Shown: piece after piece, positions 2-15,986 of the stretch
Position numbering within the stretch: the first letter of the stretch is position 1
Layout: the number at the start of each line of letters is the position of its first letter
Virus record (IMG/VR): IMGVR_UViG_3300025101_000048
Coordinates: 1-44,295 of that record
Source: a virus
Length of the DNA stretch: 44,295 nucleotides
Strand: one strand, 5' to 3'
Position numbers and translations under genes: made by a program
Notes under the pieces: generated by a model
Told to the model about the DNA's origin: nothing
Seen by the model: only the letters and a program-made list of their open reading frames with translations
Databases searched by the model: none

Positions 2-562
2 TTACCTATGGTTCTTTGTTGTGATGAGATAGACTTTGTCACTCCAAGTGTAGCTTATGTAATGCAAGCTCCACTAGAGGGTAAGCCTCTCGTGATTACC
101 GAAGACGGCAATCGAATAGTGAAACCACATCCAATGTTTAGGATCTTTGGCACTGGAAATACACAAGGCCAAGGAGATGAGAAGTCTATGTATGCTGGTG
201 CTAGACCACAGAGCATGGCCTTTCTCAATCGTTTCACTGTCTGGAAGAAAGTCGATTACCTAAGTGCAGACCAGAGGAAGGTATTGCTCAAGAAGAAATG
301 CCCTACCCTAAACAACAAGTACGTCTCCATGATAACACAGTATGTGACAGAGCATCTGAAAGCATTCGAGCAAGGCAATGTTCTTCAGCCTATCACACCA
401 AGAGATATGCTTTCATTAGGCAAGGCGATATCGACATTCACAATCATGGACTCAAGTGAAGAGAACGCAGTTACCAACGCATTCAAATCAAGTGTGCTTG
501 ATAGGGCAACTACCCAAGATTTCGCAGTACTTAATGGCATAGTAGCCAGGGTGAGGAGTTAA
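2..562 (+). CDS. CobS/MoxR-like AAA+ ATPase, 5' end missing
   Basis: The frame is open from base 2 and continues off the left edge, so only the C-terminal part (about 187 codons) is present. Numbered from the first ATG (base 8), it shows a Walker B motif (VLCCDEID, residues 2-9), a sensor-1 asparagine in GTGNT (N51) and an arginine after a conserved FLNR (R75), followed by a helical lid. This is the pattern of MoxR-family AAA+ ATPases, closest in style to CobS, the ATPase subunit of aerobic cobaltochelatase. Walker A must lie upstream of the window. Its VWA partner lies five genes downstream (1708-3777), as expected for an AAA+/VWA two-component machine. In phages the substrate is unknown; cobalt chelation is not shown because no CobN-like subunit is visible. 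Confidence 0.85.
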   Translation, partial: LPMVLCCDEIDFVTPSVAYVMQAPLEGKPLVITEDGNRIVKPHPMFRIFGTGNTQGQGDEKSMYAGARPQSMAFLNRFTVWKKVDYLSADQRKVLLKKKCPTLNNKYVSMITQYVTEHLKAFEQGNVLQPITPRDMLSLGKAISTFTIMDSSEENAVTNAFKSSVLDRATTQDFAVLNGIVARVRS

Positions 563-563
563 T

Positions 564-782
564 ATGACACTCAAACAGTTGATAGATGAGACTGCCAAAC
601 AATCTTTTGTGGAAGGTTATAAAGCAACAGATGAAGAGGTGCTAGGTGTAATTATAGCCAAGCATTTTAAGTGGAATGGAGATTTGATTTTCAGTGTAGC
701 ACAAAAGGCATTTGAAGATGCAAACTTCCATTCCTTTAACGAGAAATTTGAACAGTTATGGGAGGATGAAGTTAATGAGTAA
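564..782 (+). CDS. Small acidic hypothetical protein (72 aa)
   Basis: It starts one base after the AAA+ gene with a good ribosome-binding site (GAGGAG), and its stop overlaps the start of the next gene. The protein is acidic and probably helical, with no motif I recognise. Its position between the AAA+ and VWA genes makes it a possible accessory factor, but that rests on context only. Confidence 0.7.
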   Translation: MTLKQLIDETAKQSFVEGYKATDEEVLGVIIAKHFKWNGDLIFSVAQKAFEDANFHSFNEKFEQLWEDEVNE

Positions 783-1104
783 GATGCCACACATTATAAT
801 AACGAAGACGATGCTGAACAAGTATATCATTGATGCAAAGGTTGATGTGCTGAAACTATTCGGAGTGCTTACGTTTCCAGTAATCAAATCGGTTGATGTC
901 TTCGATCCATATACACAGACGGGTAAGACAACCATCAGGTTCTACAAAACAAGGCGTGGTGACAAACGCATGAGCATCAAGAACCTCAAAAAGTACGCCA
1001 ATGTAGGAGACTACATCACGTTCAGCGATATAGCAGGTACGGCTCACATTAAAGGTATGACTGTAACAACAGACGGAGTCATATTTGTTAGGAAGGTGGC
1101 ATGA
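775..1104 (+). CDS. Small basic hypothetical protein (109 aa)
   Basis: I chose ATG 775 over an in-frame ATG at 712 because GGAGG (761-765) sits about 10 bases upstream and 775 overlaps the preceding stop by 8 bases, the spacing used throughout this operon. The protein is basic and mixed alpha/beta in appearance, with a central K/R-rich stretch (TTIRFYKTRRGDKR). No family recognised. It is coupled by ATGA overlap to the following micro-gene. Confidence 0.7.
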   Translation: MSKMPHIIITKTMLNKYIIDAKVDVLKLFGVLTFPVIKSVDVFDPYTQTGKTTIRFYKTRRGDKRMSIKNLKKYANVGDYITFSDIAGTAHIKGMTVTTDGVIFVRKVA

Positions 1105-1184
1105 CTGAGTTGCAGATGGAAACCATACTCAACGAAGTGTTCAAGAAATTCATACAACAATTACAAAGAGAGGAAAATGAATGA
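1101..1184 (+). CDS. 27-residue micro-protein with double ATGA coupling
   Basis: This frame encodes a 27-residue amphipathic, glutamine/glutamate-rich helix (MTELQMETILNEVFKKF at its start). Its ATG overlaps the previous stop as ATGA (1101-1104), and its own stop overlaps the next ATG as ATGA (1181-1184). Precise coupling on both sides is the main evidence that it is translated; at the least it carries ribosomes between its neighbours. Function unknown. Confidence 0.55.
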   Translation: MTELQMETILNEVFKKFIQQLQREENE

Positions 1185-1711
1185 GCGATTCAGATAAAGC
1201 AGTAGCATCAACGATGCTCAACAACATGGGCATCAAGACAGAGACAGATACCCAGACGGAGATGCCTTTAACTCAGCCGTCTCGAAGGTCTGGTGTTAGC
1301 ACTGGCAGAGAAAGAACAAAGACAAAGCCTTACAAGCCAACAGTTCCGAGAAAGTTTGATCGGAAGATCACAACGGCTGATGAGTATGCTGAGATGTACC
1401 CACATATAATGACACCTCATGTAGCACAGAAGCCAAAGATGGTGGCAGTTTTGAGAGATGTAATGAGCAAAGTATTTATCAGAGATGATGATGCGATCAT
1501 AGATCCAGAAGACTACAAGTTAATGGTCACGCTTACGACTACCTATTTCAACGACATTCTGGAGGGTGCAGGTTTCATATTCAAAGGTAAGCACGAGCAA
1601 CTAAGGAAAGATTTCGGCTGGTTTCTCAAGAACATTTTGGAAGATGAATATGTGTTCAGAAAAGGTGAAGGTCACAAGCATTACAAGGTAGTGATGAAGG
1701 GAGGAGAATGA
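1181..1711 (+). CDS. Hypothetical protein upstream of the VWA gene (176 aa)
   Basis: The first 60 or so residues are polar, T/P/R-rich and probably disordered; the remainder looks helical and folded, with an LRKDFGWFLKNIL segment near residue 145. ATG 1181 lies behind AGAGAGG and overlaps the preceding stop, and its own stop overlaps the VWA start as ATGA. It may be an adaptor for the AAA+/VWA pair, which is inference from tight coupling. No family recognised. Confidence 0.75.
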   Translation: MSDSDKAVASTMLNNMGIKTETDTQTEMPLTQPSRRSGVSTGRERTKTKPYKPTVPRKFDRKITTADEYAEMYPHIMTPHVAQKPKMVAVLRDVMSKVFIRDDDAIIDPEDYKLMVTLTTTYFNDILEGAGFIFKGKHEQLRKDFGWFLKNILEDEYVFRKGEGHKHYKVVMKGGE

Positions 1712-3777
1712 GAATGAAATCAGAATTATTTATGCACGAGATGACGGAAACGTCAGCAGTATTTGGAAGGAAAGCCAAGACGAGAGTTACCTTTGGGGGT
1801 AATGGTGCGTACACAGATGGTACGCACATTAACTTACCTGCAATGGCACAAGGGAAAGAGATAGATGATGTGTCTATTGATGTGATGCGTGGTTACACAG
1901 ACCATGAAGCAGGTCACATAAGGCACACAAACTTTAAGGAAGTAAAGAAGTTCGTAGAGAATGAATGCACTAACCCAGACGGATCATTCAACAATTTACT
2001 AAAGTCATTAGGCAATGCCGTTGAGGATGTCTGGCTTGAGCGAAAAGTTTTAAAGGAATACCCAGGTTCATGGAAGAACTTGTCTGCCGTTGCGTCTGCC
2101 GTCAATGGTGAGTTCAAGGATATGAAAGACGCAGACAAGATAGCCAAAGATTGGATGGCAGTACTGCCAGTGGCACTGACATGGGAAGGCCGTAAGGATT
2201 ACAAGGAAATAAAGAACAATGACGACTGCCTTAACATGCTTGACGATGACCTTCGAGAGAGACTTAAAGACTGGGTCAAGGAGATCAATGGGTGCAAGAG
2301 TACGAAGGATAACCACAAGTTAGCCAAGAAGATACATGACGAGGTGATGGAGGAAGCTGAGAAGAGGAAGCCAGAGCCAGAAGATAAGAAGGGTGATGGT
2401 GAAGGAGGAGGAACACCAGATCAAGACCCACCTCATGGAGATGAAGCAAACAAGGGAGACGGCGATGAAAAAGTCAACGAAGATGAAAAAGATACTACAG
2501 TCAGCGAACAACTGGAGGGAGAGGAAAGTCAAGAGGACGAAGGAAGCGATGGAAAAGGTAAGGGCTCTCCAGATGGAGAGGAAGATGGTGATAAAGAAGA
2601 TCAACCAGACGGAGGGTCTGGAGCAGATGATGCTGGAGATAAAGAAGACGGAGATAAACCAGAAGATAAAGGAGATGAAGATACAGTAGGAGCTACGGGA
2701 TCTTGGGGAGAGCATGAGATACAGACGGGAGATCTTTCGAATGCAGTGGATGCTATCATATCAAAGAGTGAGAGCCTCAAGGGAGATGGTAGTGACTACA
2801 AAGTAATGACCACCAAAGATGATCTTGTGATAACGAGGCATCACCCCAAGAGGAAACTTATGATGCCTGATGACGAGCAACATGGTCGTGATGAGTACGA
2901 AAGAAAATTAAGAGGTATGACTGGAGCACCTAATGTCATAAGGCGAAAGCTAGAGAGAGCCTTGTCTGCCAAGATGAACAGAGGATGGGAAGGTGGAAGA
3001 GAGCAAGGGAAGTTGGATACCAAGAGATTGGTTTCGGCTTTCAATGGTAAGCCAGACGTATACAAAGAGAGAGATCCAGTGCCAGAGATAGACACTGCCA
3101 CAACAATATTGATTGACTGCTCTGGTAGTATGAGTGGTAGCAAGATACGACTTGCTAATGAGATTGCGATTGCTCTTGCTGAAGCATTGGAACGTACCAC
3201 AGTTAGCTATGAAATCTTAGGGTTCACTGATAGGTCTATTGGTTGGAAGAGATTCTACAGAGAGAAAGTTAAGGGTAAAGAGCCCTTTAGTAGAGTAGAG
3301 GGGCTCTTGCATTATGTGTTCAAGGATTACAATGAGTCATTACTCAGAGCCAAACCTGCACTTGGAGGTATTCATTGTTATGCTGACAGACGTGAGAATG
3401 TAGATGGTGAGGCAATACAATGGGCTTCTCGCAGACTACTGAAGAGACATGAGAAGAGAAAGGTTATGTTGGTTCTGTCTGATGGGCTACCAGCATTTGC
3501 ATGTTCTCGTGCTGGAGGGTACGAAGACTATGACCTGATGGGTGCAGACGCTCACTGTAGATATGCCGTTGATGAAGCCATCAAATCTGGCATTGATATG
3601 ATTGGTATTGGTATACAAGATAGTTCAGTCAAGAAGTTCTACCCAGACCATGTGGTGGTGCGTAACCTAGACGATTTGCAGAAGACCGTCATCAGCAAGT
3701 TAGCCAAGGCGTTACTTGGCGAGAGGTATGAAGTTGATAACTCTGAGTTGATGAAGGTCAGAGATGCCGTCGCTTAA
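1708..3777 (+). CDS. CobT-like VWA-domain protein with N-terminal HEAGH motif
   Basis: A 689-residue protein with three parts. Residues 1-200 are helical and include H66-E-A-G-H70, with an acidic NAVEDVWLE segment (E106-D107) about 36 residues later, which resembles the zinc-binding pattern of gluzincin metallopeptidases. Residues 210-330 form a very acidic D/E/G/K-rich linker, typical of CobT. The C-terminal third is a von Willebrand factor A domain with the metal-binding MIDAS motif D470-x-S472-x-S474 and a later SDG. It pairs with the CobS-like ATPase upstream. In bacteria such pairs act as chelatase or protein-remodelling machines; here the client is unknown. ATG 1708 overlaps the previous stop; ATG 1714 is also possible. 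Confidence 0.88.
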   Translation: MRMKSELFMHEMTETSAVFGRKAKTRVTFGGNGAYTDGTHINLPAMAQGKEIDDVSIDVMRGYTDHEAGHIRHTNFKEVKKFVENECTNPDGSFNNLLKSLGNAVEDVWLERKVLKEYPGSWKNLSAVASAVNGEFKDMKDADKIAKDWMAVLPVALTWEGRKDYKEIKNNDDCLNMLDDDLRERLKDWVKEINGCKSTKDNHKLAKKIHDEVMEEAEKRKPEPEDKKGDGEGGGTPDQDPPHGDEANKGDGDEKVNEDEKDTTVSEQLEGEESQEDEGSDGKGKGSPDGEEDGDKEDQPDGGSGADDAGDKEDGDKPEDKGDEDTVGATGSWGEHEIQTGDLSNAVDAIISKSESLKGDGSDYKVMTTKDDLVITRHHPKRKLMMPDDEQHGRDEYERKLRGMTGAPNVIRRKLERALSAKMNRGWEGGREQGKLDTKRLVSAFNGKPDVYKERDPVPEIDTATTILIDCSGSMSGSKIRLANEIAIALAEALERTTVSYEILGFTDRSIGWKRFYREKVKGKEPFSRVEGLLHYVFKDYNESLLRAKPALGGIHCYADRRENVDGEAIQWASRRLLKRHEKRKVMLVLSDGLPAFACSRAGGYEDYDLMGADAHCRYAVDEAIKSGIDMIGIGIQDSSVKKFYPDHVVVRNLDDLQKTVISKLAKALLGERYEVDNSELMKVRDAVA

Positions 3778-12824: not shown

Positions 12825-13013
12825 ATGAGCCGTAAGCGATACGTTCCTAAATTCAGAACCATTGGTCAGCAGACAGAAACAAATGGCAACAGAGCCAAGT
12901 ATCCAGAGATAGCTGAATGGGTTGATAGCATCAGAGAAGTTTTCCCTGATGCCAAAGTTATGGGTATTTATGAGAAAGGTTACTGGAAGGTTAAACCTCC
13001 AACCAATCCTTAA
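12825..13013 (+). CDS. Small basic hypothetical protein (62 aa)
   Basis: ATG 12825 follows GAAGGAGAAAC; earlier in-frame starts would run into the hairpin leader. The protein starts MSRKRYVPKFRTIG and has a helical middle and a beta-like end (KVMGIYEKGYWKV). A single-gene rightward unit between two leftward blocks, with its end overlapping the convergent primase gene by 23 bases. Its isolated, structured leader suggests separate regulation. Confidence 0.65.
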   Translation: MSRKRYVPKFRTIGQQTETNGNRAKYPEIAEWVDSIREVFPDAKVMGIYEKGYWKVKPPTNP

Positions 13014-14898
13014 TCACCCTTAAAGGTTTAGATAGAACTCGACTGATTTCTTCTACATCTTTTCCATCAAGTGCCAAGTCTTTTGCAATTTGTTTTGTTG
13101 AACGAGATGATACTATACATCTTTCATCTGTCTGGTTGTTAGCCGCCAAACCAATCCACTGAACACGATCATGTGCGTCTGTCCATTCACGAACTTTACC
13201 GTAACGAATTTCCATTACCATATATAATTGGAAGTCTTTCATTAGCCTTGCCGATAACATGGGCCACACTGGTCTGTCGTATGAGCCGTCATAGATGGCG
13301 GCGTTTTGTTTCGCCGTCTCTTCATCCTGATAAACTTGTGTCACACGGATCTGTGTTTCCAAGACAGTCAACTGGTTCGTTGATCCAGCCTCTCTACCAA
13401 CACCAGTCTCACTTGGCTTGTTGCTGTGGTGAACAAGGATGACAGCATAACCAGAGTTACGCAGACGGACAGCCAACTGGTTTACCTTTGCCCATTCGTC
13501 TGAGGAATTTTCCATTAAGCCAGGGTATGCAGTTCTTATGGTGTCAACAACTATTACGTCTGGCTTAATAAAATCTACCCAACCTTGTAACTCAACAAGA
13601 CCCTCCTTAGTTCGGAGGTTCATCTCATGGTTATCAACAAAGGGAGTCCATATCTGTAACCTATCCTTCGTATCTCCATGTACTTGTTTCATCTCAAGTA
13701 AACGTCTGGCTATCGTAGACATACCCATCTCGAAGTCTAAGTATAGGATCTTGCTTGGCTTATTGATCTCAAAGCAACCAAAGTATTTACGTCCCGATGC
13801 CAATGAAGCCATAGCGTTCTGGACAAATAAAGATTTACCATGACCAGAATATCCGTAGACCTGCGTAATCGAGGCAGGTGATAGCCAAGGTTCAATAAGA
13901 AATTCTCTAGCTTCAGACTTCTCAGCTAACTCTTTAGCATCTCCCATAGTAATTAATCTTCTTGATCTACCTTCACCATTCTCTTCAGCTTTGGCTTCTT
14001 CTATTCTCTTCCGATGAATGTACTCACCCTTCTCATCAAAACGATCTGGATGATTACGTCTCTCACTCTCCTCCATTGAACGAACAGTAGCTTCGAACTC
14101 GGCAACCGATAGATGTTCTTCAAAAAACTCAGTCATAAAGGCGTAGCCACGAACACGAAGTTCTGCACCGAAGTTTCCATCTAGGATTTGCTCAGAGATA
14201 TACTTCATCACTCGTTCATTCCTACCATTGCCAACACCAGACGGGATCTTCATGGTGTTTGGGTACGTCTCTCGCACATACCTTGCAGTCCTATCCCATT
14301 CAGACATCAGTTCTATGGGGTTCATTGCCACAACATCAGATAAATCTAGGTCATTAAAACTAAACGAGTCATCAAACTCTGATTTAATCTCTGGCTTCCA
14401 ATCTTCCCAGACTGGAAAGTCTTCTGGGTCTAAGCTAAAACCCTTTGGTATCTCCCAACTATAATTCTTAGATGGAGGCACAAGGGCATACGAGCCATCA
14501 CCTCTAAAATCTAGCCCATTTATTTTAGGCCAGTCTGATCCTCTACTATTAACTCCAGCTTTTGGGCCACGACGTATGCCGTCTTCTGGGTGGCGAAAGT
14601 ATAGATGATGCCCTCTCTTTGTCTTCGCACGAAAGGGTGACTTCATTCCGCAATCAAAGGCGGCATGAAGGGCTTCCTCATTGTCACAATCAACCACAAC
14701 CACACCTGATAAACTGCCAGTGATTAGAGCAATAGGATCATCTGGGAATTTAGTCCACCATTCTGTTACCTGATCTTCTGTTGGTAAGGTTTCTTGAAAT
14801 TCTTTCCACTTAATTCGTGGTCGTTTCGTATCTGGGCGACATGGGATGATTGACCAACCCATGTCTAGCAGTTCAAGTGCCGCCTCCAAGTTTTTCAT
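12991..14898 (-). CDS. Primase-polymerase fused to RepA/DnaB-like helicase
   Basis: A 635-residue replication protein. The N-terminal PrimPol (prim-pol/AEP-type) domain spans about residues 1-160, with D70-x-D72 (VVVDCDN), a GHH pair (H97/H98) and GLDFRGDG (D130). The C-terminal domain is a RecA-fold helicase: Walker A GYSGHGKS (349-356), Walker B VIVVD (448-452) and VILVHH (486-491). It would prime and unwind phage DNA. ATG 14898 is chosen because GAGGAGAG precedes it; TTG 14913 lies upstream of that signal. The gene follows a Cro-like HTH gene with a 26-base overlap. Confidence 0.92.
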   Translation of the reverse strand: MKNLEAALELLDMGWSIIPCRPDTKRPRIKWKEFQETLPTEDQVTEWWTKFPDDPIALITGSLSGVVVVDCDNEEALHAAFDCGMKSPFRAKTKRGHHLYFRHPEDGIRRGPKAGVNSRGSDWPKINGLDFRGDGSYALVPPSKNYSWEIPKGFSLDPEDFPVWEDWKPEIKSEFDDSFSFNDLDLSDVVAMNPIELMSEWDRTARYVRETYPNTMKIPSGVGNGRNERVMKYISEQILDGNFGAELRVRGYAFMTEFFEEHLSVAEFEATVRSMEESERRNHPDRFDEKGEYIHRKRIEEAKAEENGEGRSRRLITMGDAKELAEKSEAREFLIEPWLSPASITQVYGYSGHGKSLFVQNAMASLASGRKYFGCFEINKPSKILYLDFEMGMSTIARRLLEMKQVHGDTKDRLQIWTPFVDNHEMNLRTKEGLVELQGWVDFIKPDVIVVDTIRTAYPGLMENSSDEWAKVNQLAVRLRNSGYAVILVHHSNKPSETGVGREAGSTNQLTVLETQIRVTQVYQDEETAKQNAAIYDGSYDRPVWPMLSARLMKDFQLYMVMEIRYGKVREWTDAHDRVQWIGLAANNQTDERCIVSSRSTKQIAKDLALDGKDVEEISRVLSKPLRVIKDWLEV

Positions 14899-15091
14899 TT
14901 TGTCTCTCCTCAAAATATTTATTAATGTTTAATGTTGGATTAGCTGTAGTTATCTTTTCTAAAAATGTAGATCGGATGTGTCCTTGACGCACCCATCCAT
15001 ACGGGGCAGTCCTCTGAACGCCCACTATTTCTGCAACCTTACGAGCACCACCAACATCTTCGATAAGTCGTTTTATATTTAATTTTTTCAT
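14873..15091 (-). CDS. Cro/YdaS-like HTH repressor
   Basis: A 72-residue protein with a compact helix-turn-helix of the Cro/YdaS type (IEDVGGARKVAEIVGVQRT then APYGWVRQGHI). It is transcribed leftward from the divergent gap at 15092-15203, whose inverted TTGACAC/GTGTCAA repeats are its likely operator. It overlaps the primase gene by 26 bases. A role in controlling early replication genes is inferred from position. Confidence 0.75.
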   Translation of the reverse strand: MKKLNIKRLIEDVGGARKVAEIVGVQRTAPYGWVRQGHIRSTFLEKITTANPTLNINKYFEERQNEKLGGGT

Positions 15092-15203: not shown

Positions 15204-15986
15204 ATGAAGTTTCGACCAAGTAAAACATCTGACTTACAATCAGATGGCCCAACCAAGACGTTGCTGTACGCACACCATGGGTGGGGCAAAACATTTCAAT
15301 GTAGGTTCTATCAAAAAAGATTTGGTAAAGGCTTAATCATTTCTGGTGAAGCTGGACTTAAATCTATTGAGGACACAGACATTGATTACATTCCGTTCCT
15401 CTCATGGGATGGAGAGAACAATGAAGAGAAGGGTACATACTCTTTTATGCAGATCTTTAAATGGTTAACACATCCAGACTTCTTAAAAGCTCAAGGATAT
15501 AAGTGGATTGCCATAGATAGTTTGACAGAAATGTCAGACAGACTTCTCGAAAGTCTGGATGAAAAGCTAGACGGCGAGAAGAATGGGTTCAAGGTCTGGG
15601 GGGAATATGCAACGCAGATGATAGGTGTCCTTAAAAAAATAAGAGACTTACCTGCTCATGTGTTCGTAACATGTCTAGCCAAAGAAGAAGCAGATGCCAA
15701 CGGAGTAACACAGTATTGGCCTCATGTGAAAGGTCAGGCTGTCTCTAAGCAGATACCTGCAATCTTCGATCACGTTTTCTGTGGAGTGAGAACTACAGAG
15801 AAGACAGATAGTGGGCATCCAAAAGTCAGACGTATGTTTGCGACAGACGAAGTGAACGGATGGCACGGCAAAAGTCGTGATCCACAAAGAAGGCTAAACG
15901 CCATCGAAGAGTGTGACGATGTCACAGAACTACTGGCAAAGATGTCAGAAACAAAAGAACAATTTGAGAAGAGGAAAGTAAAATGA
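15204..15986 (+). CDS. Sak4-like RecA-fold recombination ATPase
   Basis: A 260-residue single-domain ATPase with Walker A HHGWGKT (residues 24-30), Walker B WIAIDS (101-106) and a later VFVTCLAKEE strand. Size and layout match phage Sak4-type proteins, RecA-core annealing/strand-exchange ATPases that work with a phage SSB. Its gene is coupled by ATGA overlap to an SSB-like gene and followed by a RecB-like nuclease, as in known Sak4 modules. Confidence 0.82.
   Translation: MKFRPSKTSDLQSDGPTKTLLYAHHGWGKTFQCRFYQKRFGKGLIISGEAGLKSIEDTDIDYIPFLSWDGENNEEKGTYSFMQIFKWLTHPDFLKAQGYKWIAIDSLTEMSDRLLESLDEKLDGEKNGFKVWGEYATQMIGVLKKIRDLPAHVFVTCLAKEEADANGVTQYWPHVKGQAVSKQIPAIFDHVFCGVRTTEKTDSGHPKVRRMFATDEVNGWHGKSRDPQRRLNAIEECDDVTELLAKMSETKEQFEKRKVK

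Follow-up and report, generated by a model that had tools for sequence, protein, structure and literature searches.

Viral genes named cobS and cobT have repeatedly been counted as phage genes that boost host vitamin B12. What does such a pair encode when it stands at the left edge of IMG/VR virus record IMGVR_UViG_3300025101_000048? The record, 44,295 bases long and with nothing further left, is called the window here. Its first gene encodes a MoxR/CobS-type AAA+ ATPase, and a second gene on the same strand, 1.1 kb away, encodes a 689-residue CobT-like protein with a VWA domain. An earlier note, made from the letters of the window alone, had read the pair as a possible ATP-driven, metal-dependent remodelling or proteolytic machine. 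Open reading frames (ORFs) and Pfam matches bear out its identification of both genes, and the residues H66-E-A-G-H70, E106 and D470-x-S-x-S of the metal-ion-dependent adhesion site (MIDAS) lie where it had placed them. Roseobacter phage CRP-810 is the best match for both the VWA protein and the AAA+ protein, and its major capsid protein and that of the window share 84% identity; the window therefore represents part of the genome of a marine phage of the CRP-810 type. For the same reason a Schitoviridae (N4-like) gp24/gp25 pair was rejected. We propose that the pair is an ATP-driven MoxR AAA+/VWA protein-remodelling machine whose VWA partner carries an N-terminal zincin-like metallopeptidase domain, and we put the chance of this reading at about even.

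A zincin-like motif in mobile-element proteins and the corresponding positions in CobT

The VWA protein was compared with 50 phage, plasmid and island relatives, some of them near-copies. They include proteins of cyanophage, vibriophage, SSU5-like phage-plasmids, rhizobial phages, an Acinetobacter plasmid and an IncC/SXT-like island, and many share about 25% identity or less. The complete HExxH was present in 47/50 relatives, with E67 in all 50 and H66 and H70 in 47 each; E106 was found in 49/50, D107 in 48/50 and E111 in 50/50. The invariance that had been suggested for checking at H66, E67, H70 and E106 is thus strict at E67, and the other three positions are near-invariant. All 46 relatives reaching the MIDAS region keep D470, S472 and S474. 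This conservation led us to reject a chance occurrence of HExxH. The ratio of nonsynonymous to synonymous substitution rates (dN/dS) against the nearest relatives was about 0.2-0.27 in the N-terminal domain (N-domain) and 0.46 in the acidic linker, and the N-domain is under purifying selection. A scan of genome contigs with the alignment of close phage proteins gave no relatives.

The same columns were then compared in 87 chelatase-type CobT proteins, taken from five large plasmids, 80 bacterial genome loci and two further genomes. An annotated cobS adjoins the gene in 4/5 plasmids, and a P-loop ORF lies just upstream in 79/80 genome loci. The genome loci are mostly from Hyphomicrobiales, and the plasmids bring in Burkholderiales, Sphingomonadales and Rhodobacterales. 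HExxH was found in 0/87 of these proteins: column 66 is S or A, column 67 mostly M and column 70 mostly R. In seven other genome matches of the same search, whose short loci held no recognised cobS, the motif was present in 7/7. Of the N-domain columns that HExxH bearers conserve, CobT has lost A34, H66, E67, H70, N103 (98% to 0%) and D107 (100% to 1%), whereas V27, P44, G62, E106, E111 and G120 are retained in both.

The column comparison changes the candidate for the third zinc ligand. E106, which the earlier note had paired with HExxH as the distal glutamate, is kept in 100% of the CobT proteins without the zinc motif, and ICP2 carries HExxH and D107 with V at position 106; E106 is doubtful in this role and was dropped. 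D107, on the other hand, is present in 53/53 HExxH bearers and in about 1% of CobT proteins. Since D107 and N103 vanish along with HExxH and E106 does not, D107, with N103, belongs functionally with HExxH. We propose from this covariation that D107 is the distal ligand or a close second-shell residue.

In a tree built without the motif columns, the 13 CobT rows formed one clade with a Shimodaira-Hasegawa-like approximate likelihood ratio (SH-aLRT) support of 100, and the window protein fell outside it. This tree, which is unrooted and has long branches, requires the motif to have changed at least three times; the argument for loss in CobT therefore draws on parsimony, together with the likeness of both domains to zincins (see below). 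The CobT N-domain looks like a zincin with a decayed zinc site, and the mobile-element proteins like those that retain it, suggesting an origin of the CobT N-domain as a dead zincin.

Profile scores point the same way on the chelatase question. The window CobT-like protein scored 146 bits against the TIGR01651 equivalog (cut-off 759.05), and the complete AAA+ protein of a relative (L010) scored 139.4 bits against the CobS equivalog TIGR01650 (cut-off 558.55). The failure at both cut-offs and the position outside the CobT clade support the view of the earlier note that the pair is no genuine cobalt chelatase. Nor was the CobN-like subunit, noted earlier as missing, found in any of 19 phage or island records, namely the window and 18 related records, nine of which are deposited phage or island records with complete genomes among them. 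The same CobN search was positive on S. meliloti pSymB and in 14/17 genomes with genuine CobT. Three genomes (G021, G023 and G025, those of loci L126, L130 and L133) have a genuine CobT with an upstream P-loop ORF and no detected CobN; they are perhaps incomplete assemblies, or their CobST has another job.

At the level of sequence, then, we regard as established the homology, the conserved HExxH, N103, D107 and MIDAS, the gene pairing, the lack of the motif throughout the chelatase CobT clade and the location among replication genes described below. The split of the motif (47/50 mobile-element proteins vs 0/87 chelatase-type CobT) offers a simple sequence test of the B12 claim.

Predicted fold of the N-terminal domain

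An AlphaFold2 model of the window N-domain, built with 36 sequences, reached a predicted local distance difference test score (pLDDT) of 91.8 and a predicted template modelling score (pTM) of 0.88. In the model, whose numbering is that of the protein minus 2, HExxH falls within one helix (52-71) and N103-E111 within another (94-115). When the top 1000 chains of Foldseek were ranked by VIA-align, E. coli BepA (M48) came first (Z 5.7, 133 residues, root-mean-square deviation 4.1), with a second BepA entry at Z 5.3; the first 50 matches also contained IRAP, LTA4H (LTA4 hydrolase), a thermolysin-like protease, MATCAP and Pfu carboxypeptidase. M1/M4/M32 peptidases are thus among the structural matches. 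A control model of a genuine CobT N-domain (pLDDT 93.4) showed the same order of elements as the window model. Its matches were headed by selecase (Z 5.5) and included LasB, Gentlyase, ProA, vibriolysin, ArdC, MATCAP, ERAP1 and thermolysin. The argument for a zincin fold rests on the recurrence of one superfamily in these two independent match lists, and HExxH is, as far as these models go, a conserved, helix-borne zincin-like motif that is absent from genuine CobT.

Other searches describe the family itself. A family profile against PDB retrieved the solved CobT structures 21vu and 9uka over the whole domain at E 4e-6 to 2e-5 (21vu_H at E 3.7e-6), while a single-sequence PDB search returned chance matches only. 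BFVD holds the same fold in VWA- or CobT-named proteins of many phages and haloviruses. When 37 N-domains were matched against Pfam, no peptidase family was reported above chance. The family alignments also matched the anti-CRISPR protein AcrIIA26 (PDB 9zq6) at E 0.005-0.006, through a pattern N-x-x-E-D-x-x-x-E-...-E-Y-x-G common with the second motif helix; HExxH lies outside the aligned part, and the likeness may be chance.

Gene context, proposed mechanism and alternatives

The AAA+ ORF of the window gave an AAA_5 match above cut-off in a six-frame search and a phrog_249 match at 1.7e-34. The gene is incomplete because the contig ends there, and its 5′ part lies beyond the edge. A complete AAA+ ORF of 638 codons was found in the relative L010/L018, whose VWA protein is 92% identical over the part present; in L018 it carries the Walker A motif GDTGTGKT and is extended at the N-terminus by about 350 residues. 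Walker A is present in 45/48 AAA+ ORFs, and the remaining three are truncated. The VWA protein matched Pfam CobT_C at 123.3 bits (cut-off 21), the CobT N-domain PF06213 at 36.2 bits (cut-off 26.1) and phrog_1576 at 273 bits. Close relatives place the homologous start at ATG 1714 (residue 3), so 1708 is not necessarily the start. The small genes between the two had been suggested as adaptors. In most relatives, the AAA+ gene stands immediately before or after the VWA gene, without genes corresponding to 564-1711, and these genes are therefore not core adaptors.

A survey of 85 neighbours at 25 loci showed genes for DNA polymerase, primase/helicase, exonuclease and integrase beside the pair in relatives. 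In SSU5-like elements the pair precedes DNA polymerase III, in S-PM2 it lies between gp46/47 and the clamp genes, and in an IncC/SXT-like island the VWA gene adjoins ssb-bet. Such neighbours speak for a part in early takeover or replication rather than in virion assembly. In the AB571791 island (L012) and a Halomonas plasmid (L016), the HExxH-VWA protein gene adjoins DUF3150 and recombination genes (ssb, bet; lambda-exonuclease family), possibly a recombination-linked variant of the machine. In the window itself, the virion genes form a separate minus-strand block. An integrase gene lies downstream of the pair; the window phage is probably temperate, a state also reported for CRP-810. The features are listed in the table.

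Features of the pair and of other genes in the window (positions are those of the window)
Feature	Position	Strand	Basis or remark
MoxR/CobS-type AAA+ ATPase, C-terminal part, 186 residues	2-562	+	Walker B VLCCDEID, sensor 1 GTGNT; open at contig edge
Unknown protein, 72 residues	564-782	+	between pair genes; not conserved with pair
Unknown protein, 109 residues (MSKMPHI...)	775-1104	+	homologue in L011; not conserved with pair
Unknown protein, 176 residues	1181-1711	+	homologues seen only in close relatives of the window, L009, L010 and L011
CobT-like protein, 689 residues: zincin-like N-domain, acidic linker, VWA	1708-3777	+	Pfam and PHROG matches
N-terminal domain (PF06213), predicted zincin-like fold	1714-2382	+	AlphaFold2 model
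H66-E67-A68-G69-H70 (HExxH)	1903-1917	+	within predicted helix
N103-x-x-E106-D107-x-x-x-E111	2014-2040	+	column comparison with CobT
Acidic low-complexity linker	2383-2892	+	sequence
VWA domain	3085-3717	+	CobT_C match, residues 460-670
MIDAS D470-x-S472-x-S474	3115-3129	+	invariant in relatives
Later MIDAS D592	3481-3483	+	D in 42/43 relatives
Tyrosine-type phage integrase	6512-7786	+	downstream of pair
Prim-Pol/AAA_25 fusion, primase-helicase-like	12991-14913	-	
Sak4-like annealing protein	15204-15986	+	strand opposite to Prim-Pol/AAA_25 gene
ORF of 3297 residues	19542-29435	-	within virion-gene block

How might such a machine work? In NorQ/NorD the VWA domain has been modelled as a plug of the AAA+ ring, with the MIDAS required for function and not for ring binding (PMC9976466). 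By analogy with this and other MoxR-VWA systems, the AAA+ subunits of the phage pair would assemble as a ring, and the C-terminal VWA domain would dock onto it, its MIDAS metal gripping a target protein that ATP hydrolysis would pull or distort. The N-domain, on a flexible acidic tether, would bind zinc through H66, H70 and an acidic side chain in the helix that holds N103-E111, for which D107 is the best candidate. E67 would activate water, and the N-domain could then cut the target. Phages and other mobile elements would use the machine during their early or DNA-replication phase, and it would not serve as a cobalt chelatase. The phage pair is thus a candidate ATP-dependent protease, with proteolysis by the phage protein put forward as a hypothesis.

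Several observations weigh against this proposal. No biochemical characterisation of any family member was found. The motif does sit in a helix of a confident model; every structural Z, however, was below 8, so that each match is weak alone, and Foldseek against PDB, taken by itself, returned no match for the N-domain model at E ≤ 0.001. Moreover, three relatives (L005, L008 and L014) lack both His and still have the AAA+/VWA pair, and all three keep E67, whose retention without His may reflect a structural role. Cutting is therefore not required in every element, and some must be able to manage with remodelling alone. These three are members from a Nickie-type phage, a Stenotrophomonas phage and an Acinetobacter plasmid.

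The His-less members are also an argument for the alternative that we consider unlikely but serious: that the pair is a MoxR AAA+/VWA chaperone without proteolysis, whose N-domain binds zinc or is merely a structural recognition module as in CobT, and which only remodels or assembles its target. Genuine CobT functions without the motif, and characterised MoxR-VWA pairs such as NorQD are chaperones (PMC9976466). Nevertheless, the other 47 members, although they come from very divergent elements, strictly retain H66, E67, H70 and D107, a degree of conservation beyond the usual structural demand.

A protease-chaperone for virion assembly is improbable. It was proposed for the MoxR and metallopeptidase-vWA pair of jumbo phages in a paper that also cites the tail-assembly MoxR-vWA of Acidianus two-tailed virus (PMC7824862), but the neighbours found here are replication and recombination genes and not head or tail genes, homologues occur on IncC/SXT-like islands and plasmids by ssb-bet or plasmid replication genes, and the virion genes of the window stand apart in their own block. 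We give quite low credence as well to counter-defence, in which an ATP-driven protease would unfold and cut host restriction or immunity proteins. The early-region location, the finding of the family largely on diverse mobile elements and the presence of ArdC, a plasmid antirestriction zincin, among the matches of the CobT model would suit it; there was no evidence of a target, and no match in the defence library, which lists defence and not counter-defence.

Weakest is the reading as a true auxiliary metabolic module, in which phage CobS and CobT would work with host CobN to insert cobalt and raise the B12 supply: domain homology speaks for it and a host CobN is possible in B12-making hosts, but the failed equivalog cut-offs and the position outside the chelatase clade make it very unlikely. 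Phage cobST have been proposed as B12 genes in haloarchaeal viruses (PMC8651126) and a Microcystis phage (PMC9503304), and some pelagic roseobacters encode B12 synthesis (PMC12075776). CRP-810 infects CHUG roseobacters, and PMC11288001 treats the cobS/cobT of such phages as auxiliary metabolic genes for B12, assigns to cobT the activation of the lower ligand base and reports that the host lineage lacks cobG and cbiX. None of the chelatase-clade substitutions at positions 66, 67, 70, 103 and 107 is present in the window protein. Activation of the lower ligand base belongs to a different enzyme of the same name, nicotinate mononucleotide:DMB (5,6-dimethylbenzimidazole) phosphoribosyltransferase. 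The footing of the B12 reading is weak, and the motif split argues against a B12 role for CRP-810-type phages, whose cultured host lineage is the one without cobG and cbiX.

A wider view is more tentative than the reading of the window pair. The cobS/cobT of phages, of islands resembling integrative and conjugative elements and of plasmids may belong to a single large family of ATP-powered zinc proteases that work at an early stage of infection or transfer, from which chelatase CobT derived by loss of the zinc site. If so, one of the widely cited classes of viral auxiliary metabolic genes, that for B12, bears the wrong name.

Comparison with known systems

The gene pair and its architecture are already known. 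In the literature searched, we did not find the consistent lack of zinc-site residues in chelatase CobT set against their retention in mobile-element proteins, the tracking of the motif by D107 and not E106, or the weak footing of the metabolic reading for CRP-810-type phages.

The closest known system is that of CRP-810, with the same pair in the same type of phage (43% identity along 81% of the VWA protein, and 56% identity in the AAA+ protein). It differs in how it was presented, as B12 auxiliary metabolic genes, with HExxH and its absence from chelatase CobT unmentioned in the passages of PMC11288001 that were found. Cobaltochelatase CobT (TIGR01651; PDB 9uka, 21vu) shares the domain order and has a homologous N-domain and VWA, but it lacks H66, E67, H70, N103 and D107, and it stands in a clade of its own. 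Group 2.2 jumbo phages were reported in 2021 to have a MoxR AAA+ and a vWA fused to an N-terminal metallopeptidase domain (PMC7824862). The likeness is one of architecture, in that a MoxR gene adjoins a metallopeptidase-vWA gene in the jumbo-phage pair (ASV44728/ASV44729); that pair was proposed for virion assembly, whereas the window family adjoins replication genes. The IncC/SXT-type VWA/DUF3150 islands carry HEAAH and NVLEDCRIE, a VWA and an AAA+ gene in the cluster, but there the AAA+ and VWA genes are separated by ssb, bet and others. The 'Peptidase' of the T4-like cyanophage S-PM2 has HEVGH and NVIEDARIE motifs, a VWA and an adjoining CobS. It is highly divergent, with a score of 41.6 bits against the family profile, and lies by recombination and clamp genes. 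The cyanophage 'peptidase' label has been called mistaken (PMC8651126); contrary to that view, the motif data favour keeping it open.

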